A model generated the notes under the pieces. That model did not search any database. It was not told the DNA's origin and was given only the letters and a program-made list of their open reading frames with translations. A stretch of 64,000 nucleotides of DNA, from positions 558,001 to 622,000 of the forward strand of contig NZ_CP003984.1 of assembly GCF_000738435.1 (NCBI RefSeq). The letters are read 5' to 3'. This DNA is from Planktomarina temperata RCA23. Its GTDB lineage: Bacteria; Pseudomonadota; Alphaproteobacteria; Rhodobacterales; Rhodobacteraceae. Made by a program: the position numbers and the translations under genes. Below, piece by piece: positions 4,240 through 10,540 of this stretch (positions are counted from its first letter, which is position 1; each line of letters begins with the position of its first letter).

Positions 4240-5841
4240 TTAACCGCCCAAGGCAATCGCACGCACGTCGTCGTCAATATAGGGCAGATACTGCTGGAAG
4301 TTTTCGCTGAACATTGCGACAAGCTTTTCGGCCTGTGCGTCATAGGCGTCTTTGTCTTCCCATGTCCGTCTGGGCTCGAGCAAGAGATCTGCCACGCCTG
4401 GCACTGAGGTTGGCACTTCAAAGCCAAAATTTGGATCAGTGCGGAATGTGCCATTGGCCAGCGTGCCATCGAGCGCGGCGCTGAGCAACGAGCGGGTGGC
4501 GCGGATCGGCATACGGCTGCCTTTTCCATATGCGCCACCTGTCCAACCCGTATTCACCAACCAGCAGGTTGCGCCATGTTTGGCGATTTTCTCGCGCAGG
4601 AGGTTGCCATAAACCTCAGGACGGCGCGGCATGAAGGGGGCGCCGAAACAGGTTGAGAAGGTCGGCTGCGGTTCTGTCACCCCGCGCTCTGTCCCGGCCA
4701 CTTTGGCGGTGAAGCCCGACAAAAAGTGATACATGGCCTGGGCCGGCGTCAACCGCGCAATCGGTGGCAAAACGCCAAAGCTGTCACAGGTCAGCATGAT
4801 GATATTCTTCGGATGCCCGCCAAGCGCCGTTGGTGAAGCGTTTGAGATGTATTCCAAAGGGTAAGCGCATCGCATATTGGCCGTTAGGCTGTCATCATCG
4901 AAATCCAGCTCTTTGGTTTCGGGATCATAGACCATATTCTCAATGACCGTGCCAAATTTCGAGGTGGTGGCGAAGATTTCTGGTTCGGCCTCTGCGCTGA
5001 GGTTGATGGTTTTGGCATAGCACCCCCCTTCAAAATTGAAGGTTCCGCGATCAGACCATCCATGCTCATCATCGCCAATCAATACGCGGGAGGGATCCGC
5101 TGAAAGTGTGGTTTTACCCGTGCCCGACAATCCAAAGAAAACTGCCGTATCCACGGGGTTTCCAGGGGCATGATTGGCCGAGCAATGCATCGGCATTATG
5201 CCTTTTTCAGGCAATAAGTAATTGAGCAGTGAGAAGACAGATTTTTTGTTTTCGCCCGCGTATTCCGTGCCGCCAATCAGGATGATCCGGCGGTCGAAAT
5301 TCATCGCGATAACCGTTTCAGAGCGGCAATTGTGGCGCTCAGGATTTGCTTGGAAGGAGGGGCAATTGATTACAGTCCAATCGGCTGTAAATTCTTCCAG
5401 CTCCTCCGCATCAGGCCGGCGCAACATATGGCGAATAAACAGCCCATGCCAGGCCAGCTCTGTCACCATGCGCACATCGAGGCGGTTGGCGGGATCTGCG
5501 CCGCCAAAGAGGTCTTGTACAAAATAATCGCGCCCCTGCATATGAGCGATCATATCCTCAAAGAGGGCCTCAAAACCCGCCTCTGACATTTCGGCATTGT
5601 TTTCCCACCAAATGCTATCAGCCACAGAGGCAGTTTTGACCACATGTTTGTCTTTTGGAGATCGGCCCGTGAATTTGCCAGTGGAGACCAAGAAGGCGCC
5701 GCCCTTACCAAGCTCGCCTTCTTTGCGTGCCAAAGCCTGTTCGATGAGCGTGGGTTCCAGCAGGTTATAATAGACAGTCCCCAGCCCAGTGATGCCTTGA
5801 TCTTCGAGGGTGAATTGGGGGTTTACGCGTCCATTGGTCAT
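4240..5841 (-). CDS. pckA: Phosphoenolpyruvate carboxykinase (ATP)
   Basis: 533 aa. Converts oxaloacetate and ATP to phosphoenolpyruvate, CO2 and ADP, the entry step of gluconeogenesis. It has the P-loop G-L-S-G-T-G-K-T-T at residues 237-245, the metal-binding [10 protein letters not shown] block about 20 residues later and the R-S-P-K-D-K substrate loop near residue 60, as in ATP-dependent enzymes. The start at 5841 is preceded by AGGAGC six bases upstream; the longer open frame to 5871 would place that ribosome site inside the gene. It is divergent from chvI, the usual order in Rhizobiales and Rhodobacterales, where ChvI-type regulators have been tied to pckA expression. The shared 277-base region probably holds both promoters. 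Confidence 0.97.
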
Positions 5842-5992
5842 GCCATTGCTCCTGAGGCTTGCATAGTACACCCTGCCTTTAACATGCCATGGTGGACCAT
5901 CAACAGTATCGGCCGGGGTCGTTAGCGCAATCAGTGGCAGTTTGGCGCAATAAATTTTCTGACGATGGCAAAATTAACGTCATGGAAGCGAA

Positions 5993-6118: not shown

Positions 6119-6820
6119 ATGCCAAGAATAGTTCTTGTCGATGATGATCGCAGTCACATGATGTCTCTCTCCATGATGCTTGAAGCGGAAGGGTTTGAAG
6201 TTGAATGCCATTCCGATGGGCTTGCCGCTTGGGAGTCTTTGTCAAAGTCCTTGCCCGATATTTTGGTGCTGGACGTCAAGCTTCCAGGCCTCGATGGCAT
6301 GGATGTGGTGCAGCGGCTGAGGCATGTGTCGAACATCCCCGTGATGTTTTGCACCACAAAAGAGGATGAGATTGACGAAGTGTTGGGCCTGCGCATGGGG
6401 GCCGATGATTATGTGAAAAAACCAAGTTCACCAAGGGTCTTGCTCGAACGTATCCGCGCGCTTTTGCGACGATGGGACGTGCTGGGGGGCGATCAAGCTT
6501 TAGAGGCGGACGAGACGACCATCATGGTGCGTGGTCCTTTGTCGATGGACCCGATGCGCCACGGGGTGACTTGGCGCGGCATGGCCGTTGCGTTGACCGT
6601 GACGGAATTTGCTTTGCTGAAGACGCTGGCGGTCAGGCCGGGCTTTGTCAAAAGCCGCGATCAACTGATGGATGTGGCCTATGATGATCAGGTCTATGTC
6701 GATGACCGAACAATAGACAGCCATATCAAACGGCTGCGAAAAAAGATGCGACGGGTAGACGGAGACTTTGATGCAATTGAAACACTCTATGGTATCGGTT
6801 ACCGATATAATGAAGCCTAA
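6119..6820 (+). CDS. chvI: ChvI-type response regulator (OmpR family)
   Basis: 233 aa, cytoplasmic DNA-binding regulator. The receiver domain (about residues 1-118) keeps the acidic pocket D8-D9-D10 and the phospho-acceptor D52 in V-L-D-V-K-L-P-G, a conserved Thr in F-C-T-T-K-E-D-E and the late Lys-Pro pair. The C-terminal winged helix (about 135-230) ends with the usual D-x-R-T-I-D-S-H-I-K-R-L-R-K-K and G-I-G-Y-R-Y. A good ribosome site (AGAGGA) precedes the ATG. One oddity is K-K-P-S-S where most ChvI proteins have K-P-F-S. It is divergent from pckA and 35 bases upstream of the sensor-like gene. The regulator thus looks able to be phosphorylated, unlike its partner, which lacks the phospho-donor histidine. 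Confidence 0.88.
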   Translation: MPRIVLVDDDRSHMMSLSMMLEAEGFEVECHSDGLAAWESLSKSLPDILVLDVKLPGLDGMDVVQRLRHVSNIPVMFCTTKEDEIDEVLGLRMGADDYVKKPSSPRVLLERIRALLRRWDVLGGDQALEADETTIMVRGPLSMDPMRHGVTWRGMAVALTVTEFALLKTLAVRPGFVKSRDQLMDVAYDDQVYVDDRTIDSHIKRLRKKMRRVDGDFDAIETLYGIGYRYNEA

Positions 6821-6855: not shown

Positions 6856-8508
6856 ATGGTCGCAATGAATGATCTCATCGTCTACCGCCGAAACCGATGG
6901 TTTATGGGGCTTCTCCTATCGCCCATGACCCGCCGGATCACATTTTTCCATCTGCTGGTGCTTTTGCTGCCAGCCGTGGGCGCGTTTTGGCTGCTGCAGC
7001 TCCACCCTGACGACCGCGATGTCAAACGGGCGCAATTGACTTCTGAGGTGCTTTTGCTTGCGCAGGTGGTTGAGGGGCGATTGCCGCATCGCGTGCCGGT
7101 GGATTTTGTGCAAGGTGACGGGGTGGATCTTGACGGGCTGTTTGACAAGCTCACCTTGCCTGCCGGTGCTGAGGTGATCGCCTTCGGCCCGCTGGGGGAA
7201 CAGCGAAGCCTCACGCCAGGAAACAGCCTTAAGGCGCAACCTGCCATGGCCCTCCCCCGCGCCTGGCCCGTCTGGCTTGGACCGTCGTCACCTGTACTGT
7301 TGGATCATTTGGCGGAAATTTATCGGCAAATCTCTCCGCAGGTGACCAAGGCGCTGGATCGGTCGGACGGGGTGGCGTCGATGATTGCGGCGGTGCGAAA
7401 TGGCCCAGGGTTCCCGCGACATATCCAGAGTCAAAGCAGCGAGTCCGAGATCTGGGTGGCGGTACCGATCCTGCATCGTCAGGAGATGGTGGGTGGCATT
7501 GTTCTTGGATATCCAGGCAAGGCTGGCGATCCGGCGGGGCGGAAGATGGTTCTGGAATTGGCCTTGCGCTTGCTTTTAACAGCCGTGGCTCTTGCGATTG
7601 TTCTTTCGGTGGTGAGCGCTTGGGTGATGTTCGGACCGGTCAACCGCATGGCGGACTCTGTGGAGCGGTTTTCTAATCAGCTGCGCCACGGTGTTGCCGC
7701 CAAAAATATCACAGCGCCTAATTTGCCGCAGCGCAGAGACAGTATTGGTCGTCTGTCCGAGGCGCTGCACCATACAATCGGCGCGCTTTTCATACGCATT
7801 AGAGAGGCAGAGGCCGCTGTCGCAGAGGTGACGGGCGAAATCAACAACCCGATGGCCTCGATGAAATCCGCGATCAAAGCTCTGCGTCTTCAAAAGGACC
7901 CTTCGGCATCGGCAAAACTGTTGGATGTGATTGACAATGATTTGCTGCGATTGGAGCGGGTGACCGCTCCGCTCACCCAGGCGGCGGCGCCTGCACCGGC
8001 AGTTGCCAAAGAGGTGCCAAGGCCCAAGATGGGCAAGAAGGAAAGGTTTGAACTGATTTCACTGATTACGTCCCGGGTGGCGGCGCTGCGCCCCTCCGCG
8101 GTTACTCGCGGTCTTGTCTTGACGCAATCGACACCAAAAGTGCCTGTGATCATTGAGGGCCTGCCCACGAGTGTGGGCTCGATCCTGTCGGCTTTTCTGT
8201 CGAATGCCATTCAAAGATGCGCCTGGGGGGACGAGATTCGGATCTGGACGCGGATTCAAGATGGCATGGTTTTGGTCGTGGTCGAAGACACAGGCCCACC
8301 GTTGCCGGAGGGTTTGAGCCAAACCCTATTTGGGACCGGAAACTTGCCCACATTGGGCGATCAGGGCGTGGCCGAGTTTACTGCGGGTCTTGCGGAGGCG
8401 GCACAGATCGTTGCGGCCCATTCAGGGGTCATTCGCGCAGAACCGGTTCAGCCTGCTGGCGCGGGGCAGGCGTTTGGGGCGCGCTTTTTGTTTGGCCTGC
8501 CGGTGTGA
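6856..8508 (+). CDS. ChvG-like sensor protein lacking the phospho-accepting histidine
   Basis: 550 aa. Layout is that of ChvG: an N-terminal membrane helix (about 28-48), a periplasmic stretch of about 185 residues, a second helix (about 236-256), a HAMP-like linker, a dimerisation helix pair and an ATPase-like C-terminus. In the H-box, where ChvG has D-V-S-H-E-I-K-N-P-L, this protein reads E-V-T-G-E-I-N-N-P-M; the codon at 7834-7836 is GGC, so residue 327 is Gly, not His. The ATP-binding part is also eroded: the N-box reads F-L-S-N-A, the G1 box E-D-T-G-P-P-L-P without the second Gly, and the G2 box has no G-L-G-L. The frame is intact, so it is a pseudokinase, not a broken gene. Position after chvI and before hprK makes orthology with chvG likely. 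A start at a later Met is possible. Confidence 0.8.
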   Translation: MVAMNDLIVYRRNRWFMGLLLSPMTRRITFFHLLVLLLPAVGAFWLLQLHPDDRDVKRAQLTSEVLLLAQVVEGRLPHRVPVDFVQGDGVDLDGLFDKLTLPAGAEVIAFGPLGEQRSLTPGNSLKAQPAMALPRAWPVWLGPSSPVLLDHLAEIYRQISPQVTKALDRSDGVASMIAAVRNGPGFPRHIQSQSSESEIWVAVPILHRQEMVGGIVLGYPGKAGDPAGRKMVLELALRLLLTAVALAIVLSVVSAWVMFGPVNRMADSVERFSNQLRHGVAAKNITAPNLPQRRDSIGRLSEALHHTIGALFIRIREAEAAVAEVTGEINNPMASMKSAIKALRLQKDPSASAKLLDVIDNDLLRLERVTAPLTQAAAPAPAVAKEVPRPKMGKKERFELISLITSRVAALRPSAVTRGLVLTQSTPKVPVIIEGLPTSVGSILSAFLSNAIQRCAWGDEIRIWTRIQDGMVLVVVEDTGPPLPEGLSQTLFGTGNLPTLGDQGVAEFTAGLAEAAQIVAAHSGVIRAEPVQPAGAGQAFGARFLFGLPV

Positions 8509-8512
8509 TGTC

Positions 8513-8974
8513 ATGAGCTTTGAGGCTTGGAGAAATTACAGCAATGACGATGAGGCGTTGCTGTTGCATGGCTCCGCCGTGTCGGTCGGCGGGAGCGGGT
8601 TGTTGATATTAGGTCCTTCAGGCGCCGGCAAATCCAGCCTCGCGATTGAAATGCTGGCGCTTGGGGCGCAGTTGGTTTCAGATGATCGCGTCTGGCTGCG
8701 CGCTTCGCAAAATGGGTTGCTCCTTCAGGCGCCTGACGCCATCGCAGGGCGTATCGAGGCGCGCGGTCTTGGCCTTATATCCTGCGCGCATAGGTCCGAG
8801 GCGTCCCTAAAATTCTGCATAGATCTGTCACAATATAGTGATCGCCGCTTGCCTTTTGTTCAAGAAGTCACAAGATTGGGTCATACAGTTTCGGTTATTC
8901 CCGGTGGGCCGGACGTGCCGCGGGCTGCGGCGCTCCTGCTTTTGCTTCAAAATGGATTTGCAGCCTATGACTGA
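8513..8974 (+). CDS. hprK: HPr kinase/phosphorylase, short alphaproteobacterial form
   Basis: 153 aa, only the catalytic domain of HprK; the N-terminal half found in Firmicutes is absent, as is normal in alphaproteobacteria. It phosphorylates and dephosphorylates the regulatory serine of HPr. The P-loop G-P-S-G-A-G-K-S is at residues 34-41, followed by the conserved D-D-R region (V-S-D-D-R-V) and the E-A-R-G-L-G-L-I signature used in dephosphorylation. The ATG is four bases after the sensor stop; the frame is open further upstream but overlaps that gene. Its end overlaps rapZ by eight bases. Its target HPr, with a matching Ser45, is encoded three genes downstream. Confidence 0.92.
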   Translation: MSFEAWRNYSNDDEALLLHGSAVSVGGSGLLILGPSGAGKSSLAIEMLALGAQLVSDDRVWLRASQNGLLLQAPDAIAGRIEARGLGLISCAHRSEASLKFCIDLSQYSDRRLPFVQEVTRLGHTVSVIPGGPDVPRAAALLLLLQNGFAAYD

Positions 8975-9878
8975 CAAAACGCAACCGGTGCATGTTGTGC
9001 TCGTGACCGGCCCATCTGGGGCCGGGCGAACCACTGCGATCAATGCTTTGGAAGATGCGGGCTTTGAATCTATTGATAATATGCCTTTGAGCCTTGCACC
9101 GAGGTTGTTCGAACAGCCGGGCTTAAGTCGGCCAATGGCTCTAGGCCTTGATACCCGAAATCGCGATTTCTCGACCGCGCAAATGATGGATACAATTGCG
9201 ACATTGTCTGCCAATCCGTCTTTGACTCTTGAGGTCCTGTATTTGGATTGTTCGGAGGATGTTCTGATCCGCCGCTTCTCCGAAACGCGACGTCGGCACC
9301 ATCTGTCGCCAGATGGCGCGGCGCTTGCGGGGATACAGCTGGATTTGGATTTGATGCAGCCGGCGCGGGTCAGGGCCAATGTTTTGATCGATACCACCCA
9401 ATTGTCGCCCCATGACCTGCGCGCGGAGGTCACCCGTTATTTTGCTCCGGACAAAGTCAATCCAATGGCGATTTCTGTGCAGTCCTTCTCGTATAAACGT
9501 GGCACACCGCGGGGCATTGATATGATGTTTGATTGTCGCTTCCTGCGCAATCCTTATTGGGATGAGACTCTCAGAGCAGAAGATGGACGAAACCCGAAGG
9601 TGCAGGCCTATGTGGCCGAGGATAGTAATTTTCCGGCTTTCAAGCAAAAAGTGCTCGATTTGATCGATCTTGTGATCCCAGCCCATGTGGCGGAGGGGCG
9701 GTCGCATCTGGCCATTGGCTTTGGCTGTACGGGCGGCAAACATCGATCCGTCACAATGGTCGAAATGTTACAGAAAGAATTGCAATTGCGCGGCTGGCAT
9801 GTGAGCATACGGCATAGAGAGCTGCTGGAACAGGCGGCTCCGTCGGACACTTCAGACTCTAAGGTTTTGAGCAGTTGA
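8967..9878 (+). CDS. rapZ: RapZ-family nucleotide-binding protein
   Basis: 303 aa, matching the family (about 285-305). In enterobacteria RapZ is an RNA-binding adaptor that governs GlmZ and GlmS; in alphaproteobacteria its target is not established. The N-terminal P-loop reads G-P-S-G-A-G-R-T at 15-22, with Arg21 in place of the usual Lys. The C-terminal domain shows the F-S-Y-K-R-G and G-C-T-G-G-x-H-R-S-V signatures. The ATG at 8967 was chosen because it overlaps the hprK stop by eight bases, as expected in this operon; an upstream extension would run inside hprK. Its stop overlaps the TTG start of the EIIA gene. Confidence 0.93.
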   Translation: MTDKTQPVHVVLVTGPSGAGRTTAINALEDAGFESIDNMPLSLAPRLFEQPGLSRPMALGLDTRNRDFSTAQMMDTIATLSANPSLTLEVLYLDCSEDVLIRRFSETRRRHHLSPDGAALAGIQLDLDLMQPARVRANVLIDTTQLSPHDLRAEVTRYFAPDKVNPMAISVQSFSYKRGTPRGIDMMFDCRFLRNPYWDETLRAEDGRNPKVQAYVAEDSNFPAFKQKVLDLIDLVIPAHVAEGRSHLAIGFGCTGGKHRSVTMVEMLQKELQLRGWHVSIRHRELLEQAAPSDTSDSKVLSS

Positions 9879-10264
9879 TAGGTATCGTTATCGTAGCGCA
9901 TGGCGGGCTGGCCACCGAATATAAGGCGGCGGTGGAGCATGTTGTGGGCGCTCAACGGGGCATTGCGGCCGTTGCCATCAGCGCAGATTGTGACCGTGAA
10001 GCCAAGCGGATTGAAATTTGCCAAGCGGCAGATGGGGTGGATATTGGCGGCGGCGTGGTGATTGTGACCGATATGTTTGGCGGCTCGCCATCCAATCTAT
10101 CACTTTCTGCCTGTAATTGTGCCAATCGCCGGGTGCTCTATGGCGCCAATCTGCCCCTTCTGGTCAAACTCGCCAAATCTCGCAGTCAGACCGTGCCAGA
10201 GGCGATTTCGCGGGCCATAGATGCGGGGCGAAAATACATGGATTGCCTTCCCGAGACTCAATAG
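9875..10264 (+). CDS. PTS EIIA component, mannose/fructose type
   Basis: 129 aa, the size of a lone EIIA-Man domain. It accepts phosphate from HPr on His9 in I-V-I-V-A-H-G-G-L-A; the second conserved block is V-T-D-M-F-G-G-S-P-S-N. The start is TTG at 9875, overlapping the rapZ stop (TTGA), which fits translational coupling. No EIIB or EIIC gene follows, so this is a regulatory rather than a sugar-importing PTS, as known for many alphaproteobacteria where EIIA-Man has been linked to ChvG/ChvI. Here that link is interesting because the ChvG-like partner is degenerate. The next gene is HPr, nine bases away. Confidence 0.9.
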   Translation: MIGIVIVAHGGLATEYKAAVEHVVGAQRGIAAVAISADCDREAKRIEICQAADGVDIGGGVVIVTDMFGGSPSNLSLSACNCANRRVLYGANLPLLVKLAKSRSQTVPEAISRAIDAGRKYMDCLPETQ

Positions 10265-10273
10265 GACGAAAAC

Positions 10274-10540
10274 GTGCAGCAAATATTGAATATTATTAAC
10301 GAAAAAGGCCTCCACGCGCGGGCCTCAGCGAAATTTGTGGAAACGGTTGAGCAGTTTGATGCGGGCGCTGTTGTGCGCAAAGATGGGCTTTCTGCTGAAG
10401 GGGACAGCATCATGGGATTGTTGATGCTGGCTGCGGCCAATGGCACCTCCATCGAGGTTGAAACCCGCGGCGCGGAGGCAGTGGCCTTGGCCGAGGCTTT
10501 GCGCGATTTGGTGGCCAATCGTTTTGGGGAAGCCGCCTAG
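10274..10540 (+). CDS. ptsH: HPr phosphocarrier protein
   Basis: 88 aa, the usual HPr size. His14 in G-L-H-A-R-A-S is the site phosphorylated by enzyme I, and Ser45 in D-S-I-M-G-L-L-M-L is the HprK target. The start is GTG at 10274 with AGGACG five bases before it. Last gene of the chvI-chvG-hprK-rapZ-EIIA-ptsH run; a hairpin follows at 10569. Enzyme I is not in the window. Having both phosphorylation sites and HprK indicates a full regulatory loop with no visible permease. Confidence 0.95.
   Translation: MQQILNIINEKGLHARASAKFVETVEQFDAGAVVRKDGLSAEGDSIMGLLMLAAANGTSIEVETRGAEAVALAEALRDLVANRFGEAA

Follow-up and report, generated by a model that had tools for sequence, protein, structure and literature searches.

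The window analyzed here is a stretch of 64,000 nucleotides from the genome of Planktomarina temperata RCA23, which consists of a single contig of 3,288,122 bases. On its forward strand, the response regulator gene chvI (6119..6820, 233 aa; Response_reg and Trans_reg_C matches above cut-off) is followed by chvG (6856..8508, 550 aa; identified by alignment, Pfam, and NCBIfam), a short hprK encoding HPr kinase/phosphorylase (8513..8974; Pfam), rapZ (8967..9878; Pfam and NCBIfam), and the genes for an EIIA-Man-like PTS protein (9875..10264; Pfam) and HPr (10274..10540; Pfam). The divergent neighbor pckA (4240..5871) lies on the reverse strand and marks the locus in relatives that contain neither chvG nor chvI. 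As a preliminary description of this DNA had stated, chvG lies between chvI and hprK as a full-length frame without a stop codon, and its product aligns with ChvG proteins over their full length, with about 30% identity to canonical members.

The codon at 7834..7836, GGC, places Gly327 in the H-box (A-E-V-T-G-E-I-N-N-P-M) at the position of the phospho-accepting His. In an alignment of 44 ChvGs, 41 have His in this column and three have Gly, namely RCA23, the isolate IMCC1909 (G004; 94% identical), which PMC10675870 assigns to P. temperata, and G002 (73% identical). A wider set that overlaps these 44, comprising 152 distinct ChvIs whose neighboring ChvG was read, gave 149 with His and the same three with Gly. 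RCA23 and IMCC1909 encode this Gly by GGC and G002 encodes it by GGT; thus, Gly has been preserved across a silent change. A sequencing error at Gly327 is ruled out by the GGC of the isolate and the GGT of the 73% identical relative; both relatives with a full-length close homolog share the substitution to which the preliminary description had drawn attention. The alterations of the N-, G1-, and G2-boxes reported there were likewise confirmed: the N-box has lost its first Asn and retains the second, the G1 box keeps its Asp and has Pro in place of the second Gly, and the G2 box (residues 508-512; 8377..8391) reads F-T-A-G-L where S-G-L-G-L is the rule. The F-box R-F-Y is also gone from the ATP-lid region (residues 488-507; 8317..8376). 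Beside the lost His, E328 and N331, which form an ExxN motif (7837..7848), are retained in all three His-less proteins. The ExxN motif beside the His site has a role in the phosphatase activity of HisKA kinases.

In Pfam searches of the RCA23 protein, HATPase_c scored above its cut-off, and HisKA, HAMP, and Sensor_TM1 scored below theirs; the curated NCBIfam model HistKinChvGCaul gave 122 bits, below its cut-off of 740, the RCA23 protein alone having been scored. An AlphaFold model of modest quality (mean pLDDT 67, pTM 0.34) retains the DHp hairpin (helices 296-345 and 349-375; the domain is taken here as residues 316-372, 7801..7971) and the sandwich of the CA (ATPase-like) domain (residues 430-550; 8143..8505), to which the HATPase_c match corresponds, and residues 488-507 are disordered (pLDDT <50). 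The top solved folds in a search with this model were histidine kinases, with 4q20 (DivL) at ranks 14 and 18. Thus, the protein belongs to ChvG by locus and full-length alignment and departs from it in the phospho-accepting His, the boxes of the ATPase domain, and the curated family score; a kinase fold under selection (see below) that has no phospho-accepting His places it among the pseudo-histidine kinases. Judged by its residues, this ChvG is a pseudokinase that would be unable to phosphorylate itself on His, as the preliminary description had suggested, and use of ATP as a kinase is probably impossible for it. The N-terminal tail of about 30 residues that precedes the first membrane helix in canonical members is missing from the His-less protein (6856-6950).

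RCA23 encodes only one ChvG, and no further intact chvG that could be the partner of this chvI was found in its genome. The next best ChvG-like kinase of RCA23 (about 2,690,190-2,691,731), whose H-box and G2 box are intact, belongs to a second ChvIG-like pair (L268:4499-6732; about 2,689,498-2,691,731 of the contig), the regulator of which is 45% identical to ChvI. This second pair lies near a gene that by eye resembles a phosphate permease.

Among the 20 genomes sampled from the genus, four (G011, G012, G013, and G019) contain an intact ChvG and one (G007) gave no match to ChvG, ChvI, RapZ, or PckA. On a tree of neighboring genes, the remaining 15 form a single clade (support 100/100) whose closest neighbors are G012, G013, and G019 (88/86), followed by G011; we assume that this clade corresponds to all or most of the RCA cluster, and G012, with its intact ChvG, is likewise named Planktomarina. 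A working chvG was not found in any of the 15 clade genomes. Their loci comprise three His-less genes (RCA23, IMCC1909, and G002), three remnants, one contig end inside chvG, and eight without a recognizable chvG. The remnants are an internally deleted gene of 151 codons in G003, about 46 codons and a tail in G001, and a stop-broken C-terminal piece in G017 that is 42% identical to intact ChvG over 69 residues and has a G2 stretch closer to that of an intact kinase than to that of the RCA23 protein. In G006, the contig ends after 16 codons of chvG, so the state of the gene cannot be assigned. Four genomes (G005, G014, G016, and G018) have chvI without a recognizable chvG, with only a very weak similarity (E 0.44) in G005; both genes are absent from G008 and G009, and neither was found in G015, where the locus is split between contigs. 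In the last of the eight, G010 (L128:4613-5173), chvI is cut to about its first 34 and last 21 codons beside hprK, which represents the last step of loss. A ChvG profile search of the 15 genomes and G007 (E up to 1e-15) yielded full-length matches only to the three His-less genes, the other matches covering only the kinase core. In the assemblies of G017 (L072:6040-7663) and G018 (L073:4047-5614), pckA is split by frame changes.

ChvI is retained in 11 of the 15 clade genomes; it stands without ChvG in seven of the 15 loci, or in ten if the His-less genes are counted, G006 being left out of both figures. In 325 genomes of the family, nearly one per genus, searched at E 1e-40 for ChvG and 1e-55 for ChvI with the best four candidates per genome scored, a ChvG match was obtained in 294 (RCA23 included; the His was read in only part of these) and none in 31. 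Since 26 of these 31 also gave no ChvI match, keeping ChvI without ChvG is a minority outcome in the family.

The His-less chvG frame is under purifying selection, which is strongest in the DHp helices that bear the Gly. The dN/dS test called for in the preliminary description gave values (Nei-Gojobori) of 0.326 between RCA23 and IMCC1909 (dS 0.09) and 0.242 between RCA23 and G002 (dS 0.69), and in neutral simulations without indels the frame was still open in 20 of 1000 runs at 0.089 and in none of 1000 at 0.69. In the comparison with G002, dN/dS was 0.072 in the DHp domain, which is the most constrained part, 0.178 in the CA domain, and 0.320 in the periplasmic part; of the nonsynonymous sites, 7 of 128 had changed in the DHp domain and about 176 of the 1099 outside it (p 0.0009, Fisher test). 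The closer comparison with IMCC1909 showed no difference between the DHp (0.124) and CA (0.114) domains. As a yardstick, eight pairs of intact ChvGs were used, one of which was saturated; the seven computable pairs, three of them with dS >1.5, ranged from 0.000 to 0.177 in the DHp domain and from 0.006 to 0.088 in the CA domain. The DHp value of the His-less gene lies inside the intact range, higher than five of the seven pairs, and its CA value exceeds all seven, which indicates weaker constraint on the CA domain. Whole-gene dN/dS by itself shows no relaxation, because two intact Rhodovulum pairs have equally high values (0.28-0.30).

The partner ChvI has diverged unevenly. The RCA23 protein retains Asp52 (GAC at 6272..6274), in agreement with the preliminary description, together with acidic residues 8-10, Thr79, Lys101, and an OmpR-type DNA-binding domain, and is therefore by composition a response regulator rather than an Asp-less one. 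Over eight pairs, dN/dS was 0.00-0.11 in the DNA-binding domain and 0.09-0.34 in the receiver, although the two domains hardly differ in the G014-G016 pair (0.105 and 0.133, respectively). Near-invariant positions, defined as at least 98% conserved in 149 ChvIs that adjoin a His-bearing ChvG, number 71 in the receiver and 58 in the DNA-binding domain; in the 11 clade ChvIs, 8-21 of the former and 0-3 of the latter are changed. The ChvIs of G011 and G012 show no change in either domain, but both belong to the reference set of 149. The first helix of ChvI is altered (N12S, I13H, L14M, T15M, and V17L), a possible sign that the regulator no longer docks to ChvG; co-change of docking residues between ChvG and ChvI gave mixed signs.

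At position 52 itself, five of the 11 clade ChvIs have Asp encoded by GAC or GAT (RCA23, G004, G001, G014, and G016), and six have Glu encoded by GAA or GAG (G002, G003, G005, G006, G017, and G018) and thus rank as Asp-less pseudo-receivers. Glu52 is not a required step, because the other five keep Asp52. The reference for this site comprised 167 distinct proteins with at least 50% identity to canonical ChvI and with position 52 covered, all others being dropped. Of these, 149 adjoin a His-bearing ChvG and every one has Asp52; the other 18 are the 11 clade proteins, two partial duplicates (G017 and G018), four orphans from outside the genus and one protein near a contig end, these last five all with Asp. 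The Asp is also present in a fifth orphan from outside the genus, which fell under the identity limit. All six Glu52 proteins keep Thr79 and Lys101; two of them carry further changes in the pocket (D9N in G017 and D59G in G005), so drift instead of mimicry is possible. The fewest Asp/Glu changes were three on the neighboring-gene tree and two on a ChvI tree from which column 52 was omitted, all within one clade; an independent-pairs test had too few pairs for significance, and the direction and number of the gains cannot be fixed. Counted by hand, two of the eight nonsynonymous single-base changes from an Asp codon lead to Glu, so that two or three events would all yield Glu with a probability of about 0.06 or 0.016 if no bias is assumed; these figures are only suggestive, since they ignore the chemical likeness of Asp and Glu. 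The canonical look of the short G017 remnant suggests that the kinase of G017 was lost separately from that of the RCA23 lineage, in which case Glu52 would be parallel. In a study of Caulobacter, cells grew almost normally in M2G with ChvI D52E but not with D52A, although D52E is not a perfect mimic, because a slight growth delay and filamentation were observed (PMC9731502). Glu is described as a phosphomimic in many regulators, whereas in some natural pseudo-receivers the residue at this site has been disproved as the cause of activity (PMC12632262).

These observations show that the clade gave up the kinase function of ChvG and mostly kept ChvI as a DNA-binding regulator, as seen in gene content, selection, and the asymmetry between the domains. 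The explanation that we consider the most probable as a whole is that ChvG is a pseudokinase, that ChvI is independent of phosphorylation or becoming so, and that the His-less ChvG serves as a modulator. ChvI, with its drifted receiver and nearly frozen DNA-binding domain, would have become, or be becoming, independent of phosphorylation by ChvG. In some lineages, Glu52 would likely serve as an intrinsic phosphomimic and hold ChvI partly active, and the RCA23 protein with Asp52 would most likely function without phosphate or with little basal phosphorylation. The His-less ChvG would most likely still dock ChvI via its DHp helices and modulate it from the membrane, in the manner of DivL and DivK, this being the weakest step of the model. 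Under the model as a whole, RCA23 would represent an intermediate stage with a retained pseudokinase. It is also tempting to speculate, though with considerable doubt, that the role of ChvG has been reversed, its DHp domain capturing or releasing ChvI without phosphate, and that the Asp-to-Glu change was adaptive and repeated after separate losses of the kinase. If this were true, one orthologous pair would show each step from two-component to one-component control.

Other explanations have to be weighed against the modulator model. The intact Asp52, acidic residues 8-10, Thr79, and Lys101 of RCA23 ChvI would be expected if the regulator were still phosphorylated by another kinase or a small phospho-donor, with the His-less ChvG acting as a phosphatase or competitor, a role that the retention of E328 and N331 in all three His-less proteins would suit. 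The second pair, with its intact ChvG-like kinase and ChvI-like regulator, was found within the genus only in RCA23, G004, G005, and G018, and the RCA23 genome contains 14 other HisKA matches. Because the pocket is intact in RCA23 and such a kinase exists, this explanation deserves some weight, but we regard it as rather unlikely: the second kinase is paired with its own response regulator, two of the four carriers of this pair (G005 and G018) have Glu52, and at the thresholds applied no such pair turned up in G001, G002, G003, G006, G014, G016, and G017, several of which are incomplete. Moreover, the first helix of ChvI has left the family consensus and by eye does not approach that of the second regulator, and acetate kinase was found in none of the nine genomes searched, which removes one route to acetyl phosphate, though not all. 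As for the phosphatase proposed in the preliminary description, such an activity is conceivable in RCA23; it cannot be what His-less ChvGs do in general, since the full-length protein of G002 coexists with Glu52, which leaves no Asp52 phosphate to remove. The scaffold controlled by the adjoining PTS proteins, which was proposed alongside it, finds no support, since the same neighborhood surrounds intact ChvG and outlasts its loss. All four genomes of the genus that carry an intact ChvG share the order pckA-chvI-chvG-hprK-rapZ-EIIA-HPr, and in clade loci the PTS genes persist after loss of chvG; PTS control specific to the His-less ChvG was thus rejected. In a Brucella two-hybrid matrix, no contact of PTS proteins or HprK with this two-component pair was seen in the accessible portion of the report (PMC2937029).

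The His-less ChvG might instead be a functionless, decaying relic whose frame is open since its loss was recent, ChvI alone being of importance. The deletion and remnant in the related G003 and G001, the other clade branches without chvG, and the weaker constraint on the CA domain than in all seven computed intact pairs point in this direction, but a frame of 550 codons that is open at dS 0.69 with a dN/dS of 0.24, and of 0.07 in the DHp domain, and a Gly kept through a silent change make it unlikely. An artifact of assembly or sequencing, already refuted for Gly327, is highly improbable for the remaining observations as well. Several of the related genomes were assembled from metagenomes, the sequences of G003 and G006 are interrupted in or near chvG, and pckA is split in G017 and G018; against this, RCA23 is a single contig, IMCC1909 is an isolate, Glu52 occurs in six separate genomes, with both GAA and GAG codons, and the substitutions are clean.

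The pseudokinase-bearing pair resembles the ChvG/ChvI systems known elsewhere (ExoS/ChvI and BvrS/BvrR) in gene order, membrane layout, full-length homology, and the intact DNA-binding domain of ChvI, and differs from them in the absence of the phospho-accepting His, the damaged boxes of ChvG, the drift of the ChvI receiver, and Glu52 in relatives. Caulobacter DivL, which has Tyr at the His site, is likewise an alphaproteobacterial kinase fold without a phospho-accepting His and is reported to exert its effect through binding of a response regulator, for which it needs no kinase activity (PMC4211667). By contrast, DivL keeps its other kinase boxes, whereas the F-box and G2 box are gone from the clade ChvG and the gene is lost in relatives. 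In Campylobacter CosR/CosS, too, some species of a genus contain no kinase gene and the regulator there has no phospho-accepting Asp; however, C. jejuni CosR carries Asn at position 51, and the abstract mentions no His-less intermediate (PMC3938529), while Glu and intermediates are found here. In pseudo-receivers, the Asp is replaced most often by Glu, and 18 of 20 characterized examples are given as orphans in the available part of the survey (PMC12632262). ChxR is reported to need no phosphorylation (PMC3960148, from its accessible part); in contrast to ChxR and other Asp-less regulators, the clade ChvI has near relatives that bear the kinase, and the loss can therefore be traced step by step in one ortholog. 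ChrS of Corynebacterium is a further sensor kinase that remains important although it is catalytically dead, but it arose by evolution in the laboratory and its output runs via the paralogous kinase HrrS, which forms heterodimers with ChrS (PMC9491836, accessible part).

Pseudokinases (DivL and ChrS), Asp-less orphan regulators (ChxR and CosR), and a link between absence of the kinase and loss of the Asp (CosR/CosS) are thus already known. A graded series within one orthologous pair, with a selected His-less intermediate and Glu as the substitute for Asp, was not described in the literature searched, which mostly excluded subscription papers, and the terms “histidine kinase,” “two-component,” and “chvG” are all absent from the RCA genome paper. 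The origin of orphan and Asp-less response regulators has mostly been inferred from end states. Here, the stages are found among near relatives: an intact pair, a His-less ChvG with Asp52, a His-less ChvG with Glu52, a remnant or loss of chvG with Asp52 or Glu52, and loss of both genes. Since ChvG/ChvI is a conserved and experimentally tractable pathway, it becomes testable whether evolution uses the laboratory phosphomimic Glu52 when the kinase is lost, and whether a dead sensor keeps a role that is free of phosphate.

Orphan ChvIs also occur outside the genus. In G284 (L145:2199-3005) and G183 (L144:1120-1501), about 800 and 380 bases, respectively, separate chvI from hprK and hold no recognizable chvG. 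In G294 (L146:1498-2190), the orphan ChvI at the pckA-hprK locus has a degenerate acidic pocket and K-S in place of K-P and keeps Asp52, which is a different route to a pseudo-receiver.
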